From assembly GCF_000308615.1 (NCBI RefSeq), contig NZ_BAGB01000165.1:1-64000 (forward strand): a stretch of DNA of 64,000 bases, written 5' to 3'. How positions within the stretch are numbered: position 1 is the stretch's first letter; the number at the start of each line of letters is the position of its first letter. Of this stretch, positions 12,908-51,326 are shown piece by piece. The stretch is from Nocardia jiangxiensis NBRC 101359 (GTDB lineage: Bacteria; Actinomycetota; Actinomycetes; Mycobacteriales; Mycobacteriaceae). A program made the position numbers and the translations under genes. The notes below the pieces were generated by a model. The model worked only from the letters and a program-made list of their open reading frames with translations, did no database searches and was not told where the DNA came from.

Positions 12908-13168
12908 GCGACACCGTCGTGAGCTCGCACGGGTGCCCGAAATCGGCGGTCCTATTGGTATTCCGCGGATAGGGTCAGCGGGAGGTGCCCATGTAATTTG
13001 GATCGCCGTTCGGTCGTAGTGACAAGAGTTCAATATAGTAATAACGCATCTGCGCAGGCCGGTTTAGATGATCGTCCCGCGGAGTGTGGGAAGAGGCGGC
13101 TTCCAGCCGCATCTATGTAGGCCTGGGAACCCGAAAGTGGACCAGGAGGCGATCAAGAGAGCGAATCA

Positions 13169-14476
13169 ATGGCGATTTTCGAGTCCGAACCGCCGGTGCA
13201 ACCGCGTAGCTTCTCTGTGGAACGTGCATCCGTTGCAAGGCGGGCGGGCATTTCCGCAGCGGTAGGTACGGGTATCGAGTTTTTTGATTTCACAATCTAT
13301 GCGTATCTAGCTACCACTATAGCCCCCCTGTTCTTCGCGGCTCACGATCAAATGGTGGGGCTATTGGCGACATTGGGTGTATATGCGATCGGGTATATCG
13401 CGAGGCCGCTTGGTGCTGTGATCTTCGGCCGGCTCGGTGATCAGCGGGGGCGGCGGCCCACGCTGCTGCTGACTGTGACGCTGATGGGAGTAGCGACCGC
13501 GCTGACCGGCCTGTTGCCGACATACGCCACGATAGGGGTGGCGGCGCCGATCTTGCTGACAGTGTTGAGGATCGGGCAGAGCATCGCGGCGGGGGGTGAA
13601 ATTGGTGGCGCTGCGGTCCTGGTCGCGGAATCCGCTCCGAGGAAGCGGCGCGGCATCCTAGGGTCTTCGACATCTCTGGGTGCCACCATTGGTGCGACGC
13701 TCGCTGCCGTGGTCGTGGGGGTGGTCAGCCTTTTGCCTGGACACGCCCTCGCAACCTGGGGTTGGCGCGCGACCTTCCTGATCTCGGTACCCTTGTTGAT
13801 CGTCTGCCTGATCTACCGGCTGCGGGTCGAGGAATCTCCGATTTTCCAGCAGATGGTCGCCGAGCATACGCCGGTCAAGGCGCCAGTTTCAGGTGTGTTA
13901 GCCCGCCGCAAGAAGGGCCTGCTGAAGGTTGCGCTGATAACGTTCGCTGTCACCACGACGGGTAAATTGTCGTCTCTGTACCTGGTCGTGCACTTCGCCG
14001 AGCTGGGCTACCCGGTGTCCGTGTCGGTTTGGTTCGCGGCCAGCTTTACCCTCGCGTCTGCCACGGTGATGGTGTACGCCGGGCACCTGTCCGATCAGTG
14101 GGGGCGCCGCCGGATCATGACCATCGGGTTTGGCGGGTTCATAGCGTTGGCTATCCCTGCGTACCTTTTGATGGACGTGAATCTGATCGCCGCGGCTGTT
14201 CTGGTACTGATATTGAACTTGTTCCACGGGTTGAATCTTGCCGTCTACTTCACCGCTTTCGCCGAGCAGTTCCCGAACGAGTTCCGTTACACCGGGGTGG
14301 CCCTGGGATACAACCTCGGAAGTGTCATAGGCGGTGGGGCGGCGTCCCTCGTCGCAACTGCCTTGGTCGCCTCGACCGGCATCGCTATCAGTCCATCGTT
14401 CTACATCGTGTTCGCAGCCGTGATCGGTTTGGCCACGCTCGGGACGTTACGGGACCGGTCGCAAGCTGAACTTTGA
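13169..14476 (+). CDS. MHS-family MFS transporter, copy 2
   Basis: A 435-residue carrier very similar along its whole length to the product of 226-1533, with EFFDFTIYA at residues 37-45 and GRLGDQRGRRP at 87-97. ATG 13169 has only a weak purine run (GAGAG, 13157-13161) upstream, while a better AGGAGG at 13143-13148 is too far away, so the exact start is less certain. The two copies bracket block A and probably import related organic acids; which one serves which substrate is unknown. No gene was seen in the 260 bases before it. Confidence 0.85.
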   Translation: MAIFESEPPVQPRSFSVERASVARRAGISAAVGTGIEFFDFTIYAYLATTIAPLFFAAHDQMVGLLATLGVYAIGYIARPLGAVIFGRLGDQRGRRPTLLLTVTLMGVATALTGLLPTYATIGVAAPILLTVLRIGQSIAAGGEIGGAAVLVAESAPRKRRGILGSSTSLGATIGATLAAVVVGVVSLLPGHALATWGWRATFLISVPLLIVCLIYRLRVEESPIFQQMVAEHTPVKAPVSGVLARRKKGLLKVALITFAVTTTGKLSSLYLVVHFAELGYPVSVSVWFAASFTLASATVMVYAGHLSDQWGRRRIMTIGFGGFIALAIPAYLLMDVNLIAAAVLVLILNLFHGLNLAVYFTAFAEQFPNEFRYTGVALGYNLGSVIGGGAASLVATALVASTGIAISPSFYIVFAAVIGLATLGTLRDRSQAEL

Positions 14477-14670
14477 AGTACCGGTCGCTGGTCATCGTGG
14501 ACCGGGTCAACGCAGGTGCGGGACGACCAGCAGATGGGCACCGTTGCATTCAAGGCTGCGCGGTGGGGCATCTTGACGGGCGTGGCCGGTTCCGTAATGC
14601 GCCGCGGTCGCGAAACGCCTCGCAGTGTTCTCAGCAGACCCCATATCGACCAAATATCATACAGACAGCC

Positions 14671-14693
14671 TAAACAGGTACACTGTCTGTTTA
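14671..14693. promoter_or_regulatory. MarR operator overlapping the MarR start codon
   Basis: TAAACAG (14671-14677) and CTGTTTA (14687-14693) are perfect 7-base arms around nine bases. A second pair, ACAGACAG (14661-14668) and CTGTCTGT (14683-14690), overlaps it. The right arm ends on the A of the MarR ATG. This placement fits a repressor that blocks its own leaderless or near-leaderless transcript. Confidence 0.55.
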
Positions 14694-15130
14694 TGATTGC
14701 ACCGTTGCCTCATGACATCGCTGGAGACCTTACCCATGCGATGGTTCGTTTGCGGGCGCGTTTGCGGGCTGAGTCGGCGCCGACTGATATGAAGTGGTCG
14801 TGGTCGCAGATCACGACGCTCAACCGTATCGCTCAAGAGGGTTCCGCCACGGTCAGCGAGTTAGCCGTCGCCGAGCATGTTCGTCCCCAGTCGATGGCGT
14901 CTATTGTCTCGGCCCTGCTCGACGGAGGGCTCGTAGCACGGAGATCGGATCCCAACGATGGTCGCAAGACGCTGATTTCCATTACCGATGAAGGCGCCGA
15001 ACTGCTCGCCAGAATTCCTACCATGCGTGAAACCTGGCTCGAGGCCGCCATTGAAAGGCATCTGTCTCCTGCAGAGCGCGAAACGCTGGCCAACGCCGCG
15101 CGAATCATGGAGTCTCTCGCCGACTGCTGA
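14693..15130 (+). CDS. MarR-family regulator 1
   Basis: A 145-residue MarR winged-helix regulator. Recognition helix and wing are visible as VSELAVAEHVRPQSMASIV and SDPNDGRKTLISIT. The start is ATG 14693 because the longer open frame from 14516 adds nothing MarR-like. No ribosome-binding site precedes it, and an operator-like palindrome overlaps the start codon, so the mRNA is probably leaderless. It is a close paralog of the MarR at 19068-19535. Likely targets are itself and nearby export genes; the ligand is unknown. Confidence 0.8.
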   Translation: MIAPLPHDIAGDLTHAMVRLRARLRAESAPTDMKWSWSQITTLNRIAQEGSATVSELAVAEHVRPQSMASIVSALLDGGLVARRSDPNDGRKTLISITDEGAELLARIPTMRETWLEAAIERHLSPAERETLANAARIMESLADC

Positions 15131-15242
15131 TTTTCGATATCCCCGCTTGCCACCCCGGATCGCTCACGGGTAATGATCGTCGGCGGGTTTCGCGGTCTCG
15201 CCCTCCGCTTTAGGCCGAGAATGTCTCGATGCGAAGAATCGG

Positions 15243-15294
15243 CGCTCAAACCGTCGAGTGGACCCTTTGACTTCTCTGCTCGACGGTTTGAGCG
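15243..15294. terminator. Bidirectional stem-loop between convergent genes
   Basis: Perfect 16-base arms (CGCTCAAACCGTCGAG at 15243-15258 and its complement at 15279-15294) enclose a 20-base loop, between the convergent ends of MarR 1 (15130) and the secreted-protein gene (15304). There is no strong U-tract. A terminator for both genes is the simplest reading. Confidence 0.7.
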
Positions 15295-15303
15295 TTTACC
15301 TGG

Positions 15304-16053
15304 TCAGTGTCCCGGCTGCGGGCCCGCCGGTGGCACAATCGGAGCGTTCATCGTCTGGAAATACTGGAACAACGCACCGACAGCGATCGGACCACCGACC
15401 AACAGAGTGCCGCCGATACCAGCGATAGGAGCGAACAGCACCGCACCACCCACACAACCCGCGATCGGCCCTACCCCGAGCAACCATGCCACCGGAGTCG
15501 TTGCCGCTGCACCCACTACAAGCCCTGCGATACATCCGATACCAGCGCCGACTACCGTACCGAGCATCCCGCTCAACATACTTCCGACGGTGAGCTGCTG
15601 CACCAGGGTCCCCAATGCATCCGAGGACCGCTTGTCCGCGCTCGGGTAGGTCGCTGCAACATGCTTCAAGGCTCCGTCAACCGGTACGACGCTGGCGGGC
15701 GAAACATCCGGAGCCGGAGTGGCAGCAGCCGGAGTCGTATTCGGGGTCAACACTACAGTCCGGCCTGTAACCGCTGCATTGATTGGGTGATCGAGGTTAT
15801 TCATTCTGTAGGTCAGTGGGATCGCGGCAACCTCACCACCATGTACATCCAGGATATTCAGTTGATTATCTCGAACCGCCAAAGAGCCGGAATCGGTCGA
15901 CAGAACCACAGATTTATCGGCTACCTTCGCGGTGTAGTGAATCTCCTGTGTGGGCACACTTCCCGACGCTGGAGCGGCGGACGCCGTTCCAGCGCACAGG
16001 CCGATAACTGTGGCAGCCGACACCGCAGCAGCAGCGAATTTCTTGCCATTCAT
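15304..16053 (-). CDS. Secreted alanine/glycine-rich protein of Nocardia type
   Basis: A 249-residue exported protein. The signal peptide spans about residues 1-26 (KK, a hydrophobic core, then a cleavage site after ASA). A polar domain of about 100 residues follows (VPTQEIHYTAKV onward), then a Pro/Ala linker and a glycine-rich hydrophobic segment (about 165-235, GAGIGCIAGLVVGAAA). This layout is common in uncharacterised Nocardia secreted proteins and is the best taxonomic hint in the window. ATG 16053 has a GAGAGAGGGG purine run upstream. The function is unknown; it appears unrelated to the catabolic genes around it. Nothing further was seen in the 270 bases upstream. Confidence 0.75.
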   Translation of the reverse strand: MNGKKFAAAAVSAATVIGLCAGTASAAPASGSVPTQEIHYTAKVADKSVVLSTDSGSLAVRDNQLNILDVHGGEVAAIPLTYRMNNLDHPINAAVTGRTVVLTPNTTPAAATPAPDVSPASVVPVDGALKHVAATYPSADKRSSDALGTLVQQLTVGSMLSGMLGTVVGAGIGCIAGLVVGAAATTPVAWLLGVGPIAGCVGGAVLFAPIAGIGGTLLVGGPIAVGALFQYFQTMNAPIVPPAGPQPGH

Positions 16054-16325
16054 TTAAATCCCCTCTCTCCAGGAGTAAATCGAATTCTTCTCAGTGGGTC
16101 GTCGGCGCCAGGCTTTTGGATCCGATGTTGGGTACGCCCCGGTTCGGCGTGGTTGATAATCCTCGGTTATTCGACAGCGGCTAGCTTGATCTACCTGCTC
16201 ACGGCAGTCGGCGGAAAATGTCGCCATTGCTGGCGGGGAATCTGCTCTCAACGGTTTGAAATAGTTGTCGTAACCGTCAGCGCTTCGGGATATCGGGCGT
16301 CTCGAGTGCAATCGGAGATGGTGAA

Positions 16326-18101
16326 TTAATCCCGTCGTGCATCGAACGCGAGGGCTTGTTCTGTGACCGTTGCTTGCAGCAGCTCGATCTCTGCTCTGGC
16401 GGCTTCGAGGGCGGTAGTTATGGTGTCCAGTTCGGCCCGCTGCGTAGGTTGCCGGGTTGGATCCAACGCGTCGAGCGCACCTTCCTTTGCTGTGCGGCAG
16501 ATCGATACCACCGTCGACTGATCCACCCCCCATTTCTCAGCTGCCTCGTCGCGAGTGACCTTCCGAGTCAGAACCTGCACGAACATCTCATACTTGTCCG
16601 TCGGTGCCAGCTGATTGTGAGATGCATCCTGCGGCTCCGTAACAGTTGCCTTCGGAAAGGTTTGTCGCTTGGCGAGGCTGCGGTCGAGCACAGTCAGGGC
16701 CAGGACGACGATGCTGACGCCGGCCAGAATCGCGGCTGTCACATGCAGGCCGGAATCGGTCACATCGTGGCGGAAGACGGTTCCCGTGATGGTTGCCGAG
16801 GCAATCGAGCCGAGGTAGCCGAAGGTGCGGAACAGTCCGGCCGCGGTTCCTACCTGTTCGGCAGGTGCCTGAACGTAGAGGGCGGTCTGGTTGGATACGG
16901 TAGTAGTGCCCAGGGTGACGGCGAACAACAGAGTGACGCCGATGATGGCTACCAGTGGTGTGGTTGAAGTGAACAGTGCCACGGCACCGGAGGCGACCAC
17001 CAAGCTTGCTGCGCCGAGTACCAGCGGGCCACGGACGAGGTTTCGTGCCGCAACCGGCCGCGCAACAATTGCGCCGAGAACCCCCATCGGTAGCAGCATC
17101 AGGCCGGCGGCTTGGGTAGACAATCCATGGCCAGCTTCAAGCCACTGAGTGAGACCGAACAGCACGGTGTAGAAGGCCAGCAGGGTGAGTGCGCCGCGCA
17201 GGTAGGTGCGGGTGAGCGCCATATTGGAAGCGAGCAGGCGCATGTCGATGAACGGTGACGATGCGCGCAACTCCCACCACACGAGCACGATGCCTAGGGC
17301 TAGAAAGATGCCCAGAGGCAACCATGCAGGAGAGGGCAGTGAGAGCAGGAAGACGAGTAGCGCACTCATCATCCCGCCGAACAGCACAATTCCGCTGGCA
17401 TCTACGCGACGGGCAATTTCACCTAGCGGACGACGCTCGAACCGATCATCCTTCGGCACCCAAGCCAGTGTCATCAGCAGGACCAGGATCGTAACCGGAA
17501 GGTTGACGAAGAAGGCCGAGCGCCAGCCGAACATGGCCAGAAGAACGCCTCCGATCGGAGGGCCTACTGCAACGGTCGCGGTGCCGGCGATAGACAGGCC
17601 ACCGAGCACGTTGCCTGGCGGTTCGTTCATCCCCTCCAGGCTCGCTCGGCGGCGAATGATCACCATGGCCGCCGGATATCCGGCCGATGTACCGATACCG
17701 ATGAGCACGCGTGCAACGGTGAGCGTAGTCAGATCGCTTCCGAAGCCACCAATGATGCCGCCCACCAGCACCAAAGCCGTGCCGACGAGGTACACCCGTC
17801 GCGGGCCGAGTACCTCGGACAGCTTTCCAGCTGTGGGCTGCGCGATCGCACTGGCGAGGTAGAGCGCGGACACCAGGATGGCGGTCTGGCCGACTGACGT
17901 CCCGAGAGCGTGCGCGATCGGGACCAGGCCTGTCGCGATCAGGGCGCTGTTGATGGGATTGAGCGCCGAAGTCATGAACAGCGGCGTACAGAACTGCCAC
18001 GAAAATGCCTTGCGAGACTTGCTGGAGCCGGAATTGAACGAGGTGCCAGTCCTTCGATGCGTGCCACCTCGGGTGGCAGATGGTGCCTCTGATGGTGTCA
18101 T
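16326..18101 (-). CDS. 14-helix MFS exporter fused to a transposase-like helix-turn-helix
   Basis: A 591-residue protein. Residues about 35-475 form a DHA2-type (EmrB/QacA-like) drug:H+ antiporter, with NPINSALIATGLVPIA in the first helix and VLIGIGTSAGYPAAM in the motif C region. Residues about 502-545 form a helix-turn-helix like that of IS3-family OrfA proteins (YEMFVQVLTRKVTRDEAAEK, then WGVDQSTVVSICRTAK). A probable coiled coil follows at about 555-585. The tail is in frame without interruption and there is no insertion-sequence end, so this is a genuine fusion. ATG 18101 has GGAGA six bases upstream. The 45-bp palindrome at 18252-18296 lies in its promoter region. An MFS protein without the tail is at 49938-51326. 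Confidence 0.85.
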   Translation of the reverse strand: MTPSEAPSATRGGTHRRTGTSFNSGSSKSRKAFSWQFCTPLFMTSALNPINSALIATGLVPIAHALGTSVGQTAILVSALYLASAIAQPTAGKLSEVLGPRRVYLVGTALVLVGGIIGGFGSDLTTLTVARVLIGIGTSAGYPAAMVIIRRRASLEGMNEPPGNVLGGLSIAGTATVAVGPPIGGVLLAMFGWRSAFFVNLPVTILVLLMTLAWVPKDDRFERRPLGEIARRVDASGIVLFGGMMSALLVFLLSLPSPAWLPLGIFLALGIVLVWWELRASSPFIDMRLLASNMALTRTYLRGALTLLAFYTVLFGLTQWLEAGHGLSTQAAGLMLLPMGVLGAIVARPVAARNLVRGPLVLGAASLVVASGAVALFTSTTPLVAIIGVTLLFAVTLGTTTVSNQTALYVQAPAEQVGTAAGLFRTFGYLGSIASATITGTVFRHDVTDSGLHVTAAILAGVSIVVLALTVLDRSLAKRQTFPKATVTEPQDASHNQLAPTDKYEMFVQVLTRKVTRDEAAEKWGVDQSTVVSICRTAKEGALDALDPTRQPTQRAELDTITTALEAARAEIELLQATVTEQALAFDARRD

Positions 18102-18251
18102 TGATTTCTCCGTCTACTTCGTGTTCGACCGAAGCTCAGTCGTGGCTGGCATTGGCGGGTGAACACCGCGACGAGGCTGTCGACACGGGTCGCGCGGTTA
18201 TCGCTCATCAGGCCGGGGTTGAACCTCCCGCCATGACACAAGAGTATCAAC

Positions 18252-18296
18252 TACACAGCCTGCCTGTACAGTTAAACTGTTCAGGCAGGCTGTGTA
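18252..18296. promoter_or_regulatory. 45-bp nested palindrome before the MFS-HTH gene (operator site A)
   Basis: Perfect 15-base arms (TACACAGCCTGCCTG at 18252-18266 and its complement at 18282-18296) enclose a second perfect palindrome, ACAGTTAAACTGT (18268-18280). The 12 bases CAGCCTGCCTGT (18256-18267) recur exactly at 19031-19042, in front of the MarR 2 gene. That repetition argues for a MarR 2 operator rather than only a terminator for the isochorismatase gene upstream. Confidence 0.6.
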
Positions 18297-18344
18297 TTTC
18301 CCCACACTCGCGGGCGCATCGTTGGGGCCGCGAAGCGGCGCTGG

Positions 18345-18932
18345 TCAGGCCGTGTGAGCCAGGGTGTCCAGGTCGGACGTTGTGATGACGTCAGCGTGCC
18401 GGGGGAAGACCTTCTCGATGAGGACTCGATGAACCTCGGCGTCGGGATCGTCGGTGGCGTCGGCCAGGACGAAGATTCGGTAATCCTGGTCGGATGCCTC
18501 CCGCACCGTGGACAGCATCACGCCAGCGGTGGAGATTCCGCCCATCACCAAGGTGTCGATCGATGAATCGCCCAGGAGGGTGTGGAGATTGGTCGTACTG
18601 AAGGCGCCGTAACGCGTCTTGCGGACCACGATGTCGTCATCGCGAACATCCAGGGCGGAAACGATCTCGAGTTTCGGGTCTCCGTCGGCGAATAGGCGGC
18701 CGCGGCGTGCCGGTCCGAACGTCTTGTGGTGATGGGGGATCGCGTCGTAGTCCTCGGGTGCGAAGGCTACTCGTACGAACACGACCTTGATCCCACGCTC
18801 GCGCGCCCATTCGAGGGCTGTTTGGGCGCGTTCCACCACTCCATCGCTGTCGGGGACGGTAGCCAGGGCTGCCGGTTGGTAGTCCATCAGCATCAGCGCT
18901 GTTTGCTGCGGAACGATGCTCGTATCGGTCAC
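18345..18932 (-). CDS. Isochorismatase-like cysteine-less hydrolase 1
   Basis: A 195-residue isochorismatase-fold protein. The catalytic aspartate is in MLMDYQP and the lysine in VVRKTRYGAF. The usual cysteine position reads GISTAGVMLST, with glycine in place of cysteine, as in true isochorismatases rather than cysteine amidases. I place the start at GTG 18932, which has AAGGAGG nine bases upstream; the longer frame to 19013 lacks this. It is divergent from MarR 2, with operator site B between them, and upstream of the MFS-HTH gene. This suggests one MarR-controlled detoxification unit. Confidence 0.75.
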   Translation of the reverse strand: MTDTSIVPQQTALMLMDYQPAALATVPDSDGVVERAQTALEWARERGIKVVFVRVAFAPEDYDAIPHHHKTFGPARRGRLFADGDPKLEIVSALDVRDDDIVVRKTRYGAFSTTNLHTLLGDSSIDTLVMGGISTAGVMLSTVREASDQDYRIFVLADATDDPDAEVHRVLIEKVFPRHADVITTSDLDTLAHTA

Positions 18933-19028
18933 GTACGTGACCCTCCTTCGCATTGTGGAATATGTGGCGACTCGCGGCCTTGCGAGGCTGCCGAGGCTTG
19001 CAGGCGGGCTCATTGCACAGTTAGACTT

Positions 19029-19067
19029 AGCAGCCTGCCTGTCTAAACTAGACTAGTCTGGCTTGCT
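19029..19067. promoter_or_regulatory. MarR 2 operator overlapping its start codon (site B)
   Basis: The region between the divergent isochorismatase and MarR 2 genes carries CAGCCTGCCTGT (19031-19042), identical to part of site A, followed by GTCTA-AAC-TAGAC (19041-19053), a perfect short palindrome, and a partial inverted copy (GGCTTGCT) that runs up to the ATG at 19068. Binding here would repress both divergent genes. Confidence 0.55.
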
Positions 19068-19535
19068 ATGTCCATCAACCGAGATGGAGCACACACCTTG
19101 GCCGTTCCGCTTGCCTGCCACATTGCCCACCAGCTTTCGTGTGCGGTACTACGTCTGAGAGCGCGACTGCGGACCGAGTTCGCGACCGGTAGCTCGCGCT
19201 GGACGTGGTCGCAACTATCGACGCTGAATCGCATTGCCAGCGAGGGGCCGACCACGCTCAGTGCCTTGGCGGCGGCGGAATGTGTTCGTCCGCAGGCGCG
19301 GTCGTCGACTGTCGCGGCTCTCTGTGAAGAAGGGGTAGTCGCCCGCGAGTCGGACCCCACCGACGCCCGGAAGATGCTGGTCTCGATCACTCCCGCGGGC
19401 AGGGACCTTCTCGCGAGCATTCCCGCTCTACGTGAAGCCTGGCTTGAACGGGCGATTGAACAACGCCTATCGCCGACTGAGCGGCGGACGTTGGCCGACG
19501 CGGCGCAGCTCATGAACCGGCTGGCTGACTGCTGA
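19068..19535 (+). CDS. MarR-family regulator 2
   Basis: A 155-residue MarR protein closely related to MarR 1 (shared patterns: VLRLRARLRTEFA, WTWSQLSTLNRIASEG, CVRPQARSS, SDPTDARKMLVSIT, and a LADC C-terminus). No ribosome-binding site precedes ATG 19068, and the operator-like site B abuts the start, so the mRNA is probably leaderless, as for MarR 1. The shared 12-base element at sites A and B points to control of itself, the isochorismatase-like gene and the MFS-HTH exporter. The ligand may be a toxic pathway compound; that is inference. Confidence 0.8.
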   Translation: MSINRDGAHTLAVPLACHIAHQLSCAVLRLRARLRTEFATGSSRWTWSQLSTLNRIASEGPTTLSALAAAECVRPQARSSTVAALCEEGVVARESDPTDARKMLVSITPAGRDLLASIPALREAWLERAIEQRLSPTERRTLADAAQLMNRLADC

Positions 19536-49937: not shown

Positions 49938-51326
49938 ATGACTTTTCTATTGCGGGTCAATAAGCATGAGGCACCACCAGACCGTTTCGATCGTCGGTTG
50001 TTACCTGCCATGATGCTGAGTTCAGCCTTGAACCCAGTCAATTCATCCATTATTTCGGTTTCGCTGGTACCAATCGGCGTAGCGTTCGGCGCCTCAGCAT
50101 CCGAGACCGCTTGGTTGGTGTCGGCGCTGTACCTGGCAACGGCTGTTGGGCAACCAGTCGTCGGGCGGCTTGTGGATCTGTACGGTCCTCGCTGGATCTA
50201 CCTGGGTGGAACGATGCTGGCCGGCCTCGCTGGCCTATTGGGGGTGCTCGCACCCCAGTTTTGGGTTCTCGTCCTAGCGCGGGTGGTCCTGGGATTCGGT
50301 ACGTGTGCAGGCTATCCCGCATCGATGTACTTGATTCGCAGCGAAGCTGATCGCACAGGGAAGGGCAGCCCTGCGGGCGTTCTCACCGCGTTGGCTGTTG
50401 CCAATCAGACGGTGACGGTTATCGGGCCGACACTGGGTGGCTTGCTCATCCATGTCGGAGGCTGGCGAACGACCTTCGCCGTCAATATTCCACTCGCGCT
50501 TGCATGCTTGGTGCTGGGCGCGCGTAGAATACCGAAAGTCGTTGTTGCCCAACGAAGCACGTTGTCGAGCCTGGACTTTCCAGGCATCGGCCTCTTCACG
50601 GGAATGTTGGTCGCTCTCTTGATCTTCCTGATGAAGCCTCAAGTCGCGCATTGGTATCTACCGGTGATTGCATTGTTGGCAGGTATCGGCTTGATCATCC
50701 GCGAGATGCGCATCGCGCAGCCATTTCTTGATGTTCGGGTTCTCGGTGGAAATCTTCCCCTGGTGGCGACATTTCTGCGAAACCTACTCGCTTGTATGGT
50801 GCTCTACTGTTATCTCTACGGTTTCACACAGTGGCTGGAGCAGGGGCGTGGTCTGAGTGCCGCAGGGGCAGGACTTGTTTTGCTCCCTATGTCATTGACG
50901 GCGATCGGCGTCTCGACCCTCACTGGTCGGCGGCCAGAGATCCGGGCGAAGCTCCTGGTCGGCAGTCTAGGCCAGGTCCTAGTGGCTGTCGTCTTGCTGA
51001 CATTGCACTCTGGTTCGGCGATCTGGCTTCTGGTTGTGGGCTCGATGATCATGGGCATACCTCAAGGGCTGAATACCCTTGCCAACCAAAACGCCCTTTA
51101 CTTACAGGCAGATCCGACGCGGATCGGTTCGTCTGCGGGGCTGCTTCGGACTTCCACCTACTTCGGCGCGATCGGCGCGGCAGCTGCGGGCGGCGCGTTC
51201 CTATCATCGGGTTCCAGCGGGGCTGGTTTGCCGAGTCTTGCAGGATTCATGCTGGTTTCATCGGTAGCACTGGTTCTGTTGACAACACTCGATCGGTCGC
51301 TTGCGCGCCTCGGCCGGTCTCAGTGA
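49938..51326 (+). CDS. 14-helix MFS exporter (DHA2-like)
   Basis: A 462-residue major facilitator with SALNPVNSSIISVSLVPIG in helix 1 and VVLGFGTCAGYPASMYLI in the motif C region. These parts resemble the MFS portion of 16326-18101, but there is no helix-turn-helix tail. ATG 49938 directly follows the MarR 3 stop, with AAGG immediately before it, so translation is probably coupled. Export of a toxic substrate or intermediate under MarR 3 control is inferred. Confidence 0.8.
   Translation: MTFLLRVNKHEAPPDRFDRRLLPAMMLSSALNPVNSSIISVSLVPIGVAFGASASETAWLVSALYLATAVGQPVVGRLVDLYGPRWIYLGGTMLAGLAGLLGVLAPQFWVLVLARVVLGFGTCAGYPASMYLIRSEADRTGKGSPAGVLTALAVANQTVTVIGPTLGGLLIHVGGWRTTFAVNIPLALACLVLGARRIPKVVVAQRSTLSSLDFPGIGLFTGMLVALLIFLMKPQVAHWYLPVIALLAGIGLIIREMRIAQPFLDVRVLGGNLPLVATFLRNLLACMVLYCYLYGFTQWLEQGRGLSAAGAGLVLLPMSLTAIGVSTLTGRRPEIRAKLLVGSLGQVLVAVVLLTLHSGSAIWLLVVGSMIMGIPQGLNTLANQNALYLQADPTRIGSSAGLLRTSTYFGAIGAAAAGGAFLSSGSSGAGLPSLAGFMLVSSVALVLLTTLDRSLARLGRSQ

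Follow-up and report, generated by a model that had tools for sequence, protein, structure and literature searches.

The window analyzed here is a 64,000-nucleotide stretch of the Nocardia jiangxiensis NBRC 101359 genome (contig NZ_BAGB01000165.1, positions 1 to 64,000). It contains a cluster in which the reading frame of an MFS exporter continues into a tail related to a transposase subunit, with the following features:

16326..18101, minus strand: whole fused ORF, a single open frame of 591 amino acids.
16665..18101, minus strand: MFS exporter part, residues 1-479, ending in DRSLAKR at about the point where homologues end.
16611..16664, minus strand: linker, residues 480-497, mostly predicted to be disordered and opening with CAA (Gln480).
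16464..16610, minus strand: OrfA-like helix-turn-helix, residues 498-546, with the putative recognition helix at 528-546.
16332..16448, minus strand: long helix, residues 552-590, homologous to the coiled-coil region of OrfA.
18249..18299, no strand assigned: palindrome between the isochorismatase and MFS genes.
18345..19013, minus strand: isochorismatase-like hydrolase of 222 amino acids (PF00857, 2.2e-35).
19014..19067, no strand assigned: divergent intergenic region between marR and the isochorismatase gene, holding CAGCCTGCCTGT at 19031-19042.
19068..19535, plus strand: MarR-family regulator of 155 amino acids (PF01047, 1.7e-9), divergent from the isochorismatase-MFS pair.

The fusion of exporter and tail was confirmed, with 591 uninterrupted codons at 16326-18101 on the minus strand. 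The exporter half has an MFS_1 fold (Pfam match at residues 41-435, E 5.7e-40), and its best NCBIfam match was TIGR00711, efflux_EmrB, with 93.5 bits. This score is below the curated cut-off of 230.2, and we therefore call the exporter DHA2-like and place it outside the subfamily model. Exporters of the DHA2 or EmrB type have 14 transmembrane helices and both ends in the cytoplasm. In a full-length AlphaFold2 model (three sequences in the alignment, mean pLDDT 67.9), 14 long helices were counted with moderate confidence between residues 35 and 472 when 124-139 and 141-155 were treated as one helix, while residues 477-496 fell below a pLDDT of 50. If this count is correct, the tail would lie on the cytoplasmic side, as the even number of helices suggests. 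The MFS_1 domain is shared with EmrB/QacA-type (DHA2) exporters encoded beside marR, as the 14 long helices of the model would be, but the exporter in the window has an extra C-terminal domain and scores far below the EmrB cut-off.

The gene arrangement also differed from that of most relatives. The marR gene is divergent in the window, whereas in 30 of 40 homologue places (six duplicates removed) it preceded the MFS gene on the same strand. Similarly, the isochorismatase gene is upstream in the window, but in 7 of the 40 relatives it follows the MFS gene (and is fused to it in one, L065). On a Priestia megaterium plasmid (L106), an isochorismatase gene immediately precedes an MFS gene from the same family, with a divergent TetR-family gene; this is the layout of the window cluster but with another type of regulator. 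Since the plasmid also has isochorismatase upstream of the MFS gene, we do not read the gene order as evidence of a rearrangement. Elsewhere in the window, the exporter family has a second member (49989-51287, 38% identity) with a marR gene upstream, and another MFS transporter (13169-14476) is followed by another MarR-family gene (14516-15130). A perfect, terminator-like 16-nt inverted repeat with 20 nt between its arms (15243-15294) sits between the convergent ORFs at 14516-15130 (plus strand) and 15304-16053 (minus strand).

The tail was related beyond chance to OrfA, the helix-turn-helix subunit of IS3-like elements, and sequence comparison places this homology across both the helix-turn-helix and the coiled coil. 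It was 57% identical over 93 residues to the OrfA of L044 (blastp E 1e-26, in a small database of frames from IS loci) and 56% identical over residues 498-587 to WP_051445766.1 from M. intracellulare plasmids. The OrfAs of L045 and L047 were 48% and 52% identical and other real OrfAs about 37 to 54%, and the best tblastn match in the whole plasmid collection had an E value of 2e-15. Helices were predicted at residues 500-511, 517-523, and 528-546, a trio typical of a helix-turn-helix, and at 552-590. The same elements appeared when the tail was folded alone (mean pLDDT 77.8), and in that fold the long helix was the best predicted part, with pLDDT blocks of 79, 94, 93, and 85. A first-pass annotation of the sequence had described an exporter running without a break into an OrfA-type helix-turn-helix, at about residues 502-545, and a coiled coil; the single frame, the homology, and the predicted helices all agree with it. 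Profile matches were weaker. The Pfam matches of the tail were below threshold for both HTH_59 (2.7e-4, 21.3 versus 27) and HTH_28 (0.017, 15.6 versus 25), the L044 OrfA passed the HTH_28 gathering score (28.5, threshold 25), and a fold search of the PDB with the tail returned nothing at an E value below 0.001.

Although it has the helix-turn-helix and the coiled coil in common with IS3-like OrfAs, the tail departs from them at several points. A basic run such as RKRR precedes the helix-turn-helix in all five aligned OrfAs, and the tail has DASHNQ in its place. An arginine opens the recognition helix in 15 of 17 OrfA sequences (9 of 9 in one set and 6 of 7 further ones; L099 and L102 escaped the search pattern), the exceptions being L101 (Val) and L059 (Cys, in a copy with an internal stop). 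The tail has Gln528 at this position. The LHLxxGKxxW-like C-terminal end of OrfA also is absent. The differences between the tail and the L044 OrfA amounted to 0.32, 0.35, and 0.61 at codon positions 1, 2, and 3. The tail thus differs mostly at third positions, and coding constraint acted on it through a large part of its history, a constraint that cannot be divided into the periods before and after the fusion. No ATG, GTG, or TTG occurs in frame between Gln480 and Met506, which lies in the first tail helix, and the full tail can therefore be produced only in one piece with the exporter, in contrast to OrfA.

Matches to the tail were found in 3 of 198, 6 of 397, 8 of 394, and 6 of 296 genomes in four overlapping samples, each of which included the genome of the window itself and in which a limited number of candidates was scored per genome (the 296-genome search was run at E 1e-8). 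None of the 16 other genomes with a tail match has an MFS exporter in the same frame, and in two of them (G230 and G595) the matches were weak and probably due to chance. The frames matched in the 296-genome sample were 85 to 135 amino acids long. Frames longer than OrfA (L043, L058, L059, L061, and L062) turned out to be chance frames or weak matches with no MFS exporter. A search with the whole protein identified no second fusion in 150 genomes of the genus at E 1e-110. None turned up among the plasmid matches, where all eight MFS matches were inspected, or in viral contigs, and a scan of genome contigs gave two relatives, both without the tail. Two plasmid tblastn matches (H22 and H24) aligned past residue 480; we rejected them, as their frames extend for just 14 and 9 residues beyond residue 472.

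The exporter family itself gave the same result. An OrfA-type tail was present at none of 46 homologue places (52 loci minus six duplicates; among the 46, two pairs, L076/L107 and L108/L109, have the same match values, the second of each repeating the first), and tail-like sequence was absent from these loci, which mostly covered 1.5 kb on each side. The frame ended 7 to 40 amino acids past residue 472 in 45 of the 46 places, compared with 119 in the window. In the remaining one (L065, in genome G090), 222 amino acids follow residue 472 and form an in-frame isochorismatase-like hydrolase. The C-terminus of the exporter family has therefore accepted a domain at least twice, and the OrfA tail once. 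The first-pass annotation had suggested looking for the same domain fusion in other genomes, and among those sampled it was seen only in this one; a one-off capture is the most likely account. Searches of an open-access library turned up no paper describing an MFS exporter that carries an OrfA tail.

The IS elements that encode relatives of the tail are about 1.6 kb long, and an orfB with an integrase core accompanies the OrfA relative in six annotated plasmid regions. Their ends were obtained by comparing copies, and 4-bp target duplications could be read in L002, L004, and L006. The best NCBIfam match of their OrfB proteins was the IS3 transposase with 104.3 bits, below the cut-off of 160, and the elements are for this reason called IS3-like. 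The inner block of their terminal repeats varies by lineage, with CCCAGCCA in L044 and L047, CCCAACCA in L085, CTCCCCAC in L099 and L100, and CAGACAACATC in L098; such lineage-specific blocks could help to match the recognition helices of OrfAs to the sites they bind.

Unlike in these elements, neither orfB nor terminal repeats were found beside the tail. The OrfB proteins of three ISs gave a best E value of 0.22 against positions 13000-19000; a tblastn search whose queries also included unrelated long frames produced three matches below 1e-5, all of them frames that overlap orfA or run antisense to it and that match the tail region. Six repeat queries from the three ISs detected no terminal repeat in 15000-17000, where, depending on the query, 19 to 60 of 60 shuffles scored at least as high; the first-pass annotation had proposed confirming that no IS ends flank the tail. 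The linker resembled IS leaders only at the level of shuffled sequence. With neither a repeat nor leader similarity at the junction, we dropped an IS insertion at this point. In the genome of the window, an OrfB query (P0003) matched only at 26 to 36% identity, and the tail had no second match. The earlier description of a domesticated transposase domain is borne out for the origin of the tail, through its OrfA homology; for a function of the domain, we found no evidence.

The position of the junction points to how the fusion may have arisen. In three homologues (L017, L018, and L025), the stop codon (TAA, TAG, and TGA, respectively) immediately follows DRSLxxR, and in the window DRSLAKR is followed by CAA, the codon of Gln480, which is one transition away from TAA. 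Our preferred reading, to which we assign a probability of about 0.65, is that a MarR-controlled, DHA2-like MFS exporter gained an orphan IS3-like OrfA in frame at its natural C-terminus. The exporter stop could have been lost, for example by a change of TAA to CAA at Gln480; alternatively, a rearrangement could have joined the 3' end of the exporter gene to a degraded IS fragment. Stop loss and rearrangement beside an IS fragment would both fit, and with either of them ribosomes would run into orfA. Under the same reading, the tail is probably a tolerated appendage that perhaps adds self-association through its coiled coil, and the divergent MarR probably controls transcription through the 19014-19067 region and the palindrome ahead of the MFS gene. 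The coding constraint seen in the tail and the resemblance of the palindrome to the inner repeat block of L044 count against this reading. A regulatory role for the tail is possible but unsupported.

The palindrome that the first-pass annotation had placed at 18252-18296 is real. Its arms (18249-18273 and 18275-18299) are 92% complementary, as RNA it would fold with -42.2 kcal/mol (z -7.65), and even with three mismatches allowed, its 41-nt core is unique in the 10.4-Mb genome. With at most one mismatch, CAGCCTGCCTGT occurs three times in the 64-kb window, at 18256-18267, 18281-18292, and 19031-19042. All three sites lie within the two regulatory gaps of the exporter cluster, and CAGCCTGCCTGT is a candidate MarR operator motif.

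To follow these sequences into the family, we compared 140 nt around the marR start of 30 tail-less relatives (score of at least 22) with control pieces from the same loci. Palindrome-like sequence was present in 8 of the 30 relatives versus 2 of 300 control pieces; for the 19014-19067 region, similar sequence was present upstream of marR in 6 of 30 versus 0 of 300. The other 22 relatives had no palindrome-like sequence upstream of marR, and the eight positive ones all belong to the genus of the window, represent two lineages, and include one in the same genome. In L014, CAGCTACACAGCCAGCTGTACAGTT stands just ahead of marR. When relatives were collapsed at 60% MFS identity into seven lineages, the palindrome was found in 2 of 7, a count that the controls overlap (mean 0.23, largest 2, in 40 draws), and the 19014-19067 region in 3 of 7 (0 in 40 control draws). 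The latter region recurs near marR, and marR adjoins the exporter, which makes the intergenic region a good candidate, and a probable one, for a MarR operator. The palindrome shares the 12-mer of this region, and the balance of the comparison favors it as another MarR operator.

A different role for the palindrome would follow if the exporter were a membrane-tethered autoregulator, with a tail dimerized by its coiled coil that binds the palindrome ahead of the gene encoding it and ties transcription to export. This pairing looked good at first. On the minus strand, GGAAATACACAGCC of the palindrome agrees at 13 of 14 positions with the inner block of the L044 terminal repeats; among ISs whose ends are known, L044 encodes the OrfA most similar to the tail. 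A profile of this block, built from six repeats, gave its highest score in the 64-kb window at the palindrome (15.65 versus 13.21). In 396 random 243-nt pieces, the profile never scored as high as it did upstream of the MFS gene, and the genome contains GAAATACNCAGCC at only two places, one of them the palindrome. Additionally, work on two IS systems can be cited in its support: IS911 OrfAB(1-149) was proposed to bind the subterminal repeat region as a dimer (PMC2909936), and for IS2, OrfA is reported to act as a repressor close to its promoter (PMC3299598).

However, the pairing was weakened by unselected tiles, 22 of 1,822 of which (about 1.2%) match the repeat equally well, and by the presence of palindrome-like sequence before marR in tail-less relatives. 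Among 10 ISs, the match to the palindrome reached the 1% level of shuffles in only two (L044 and L047), and over all 10 the rank correlation between repeat match and tail identity was not significant (Spearman 0.60, p 0.07). The IS repeats had no resemblance to the marR-upstream regions (p 0.15). The tail also has lost the basic arm and the recognition-helix arginine, and the fusion is confined to a single genome. We regard tethered autoregulation as unlikely on this evidence, and the palindrome fits the neighboring MarR at least as well as it fits the tail. The suggestion of a one-piece sensor, exporter, and regulator in the first-pass annotation loses ground on the same points: the single genome, the missing OrfA features for DNA contact, and a proposed target that is common to the marR-upstream regions of some tail-less relatives. 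It is rather unlikely, too, that the captured OrfA tail reads the palindrome or some other site, in which case a tethered transporter-regulator may compete with MarR for its operator.

The tail may instead have been kept for protein-protein contact, through oligomerization by the coiled coil, and not for DNA binding. The long helix is its best predicted part, the DNA-contact features are among those that changed, and L065 bears a different cytoplasmic domain, the isochorismatase, at the same place; however, none of the relatives has the tail, and we consider this account quite improbable. A sequencing or assembly error that removed the stop between two ORFs that are separate in life is very improbable, since a separate OrfA would have no in-frame start before the first tail helix and would therefore be truncated or require a second error, even though the sequence comes from one draft genome of 173 contigs and a single base change at Gln480 would give a stop where relatives have one.

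A parallel to the captured OrfA is the MFS-isochorismatase fusion of L065, which belongs to the same MFS family (56% identity) and carries its in-frame domain at the same point. The domain added there is a common neighbor gene of the cluster, whereas that in the window is part of a transposase. The window provides a clean natural example of an IS subunit grafted onto a host membrane protein, and the grafting site is a C-terminus that accepted a different domain elsewhere in the exporter family. The tail-less relatives show that a tempting operator match may have a simpler explanation in the neighboring regulator. Should the tail prove to bind DNA, a single protein would connect export with transcription.
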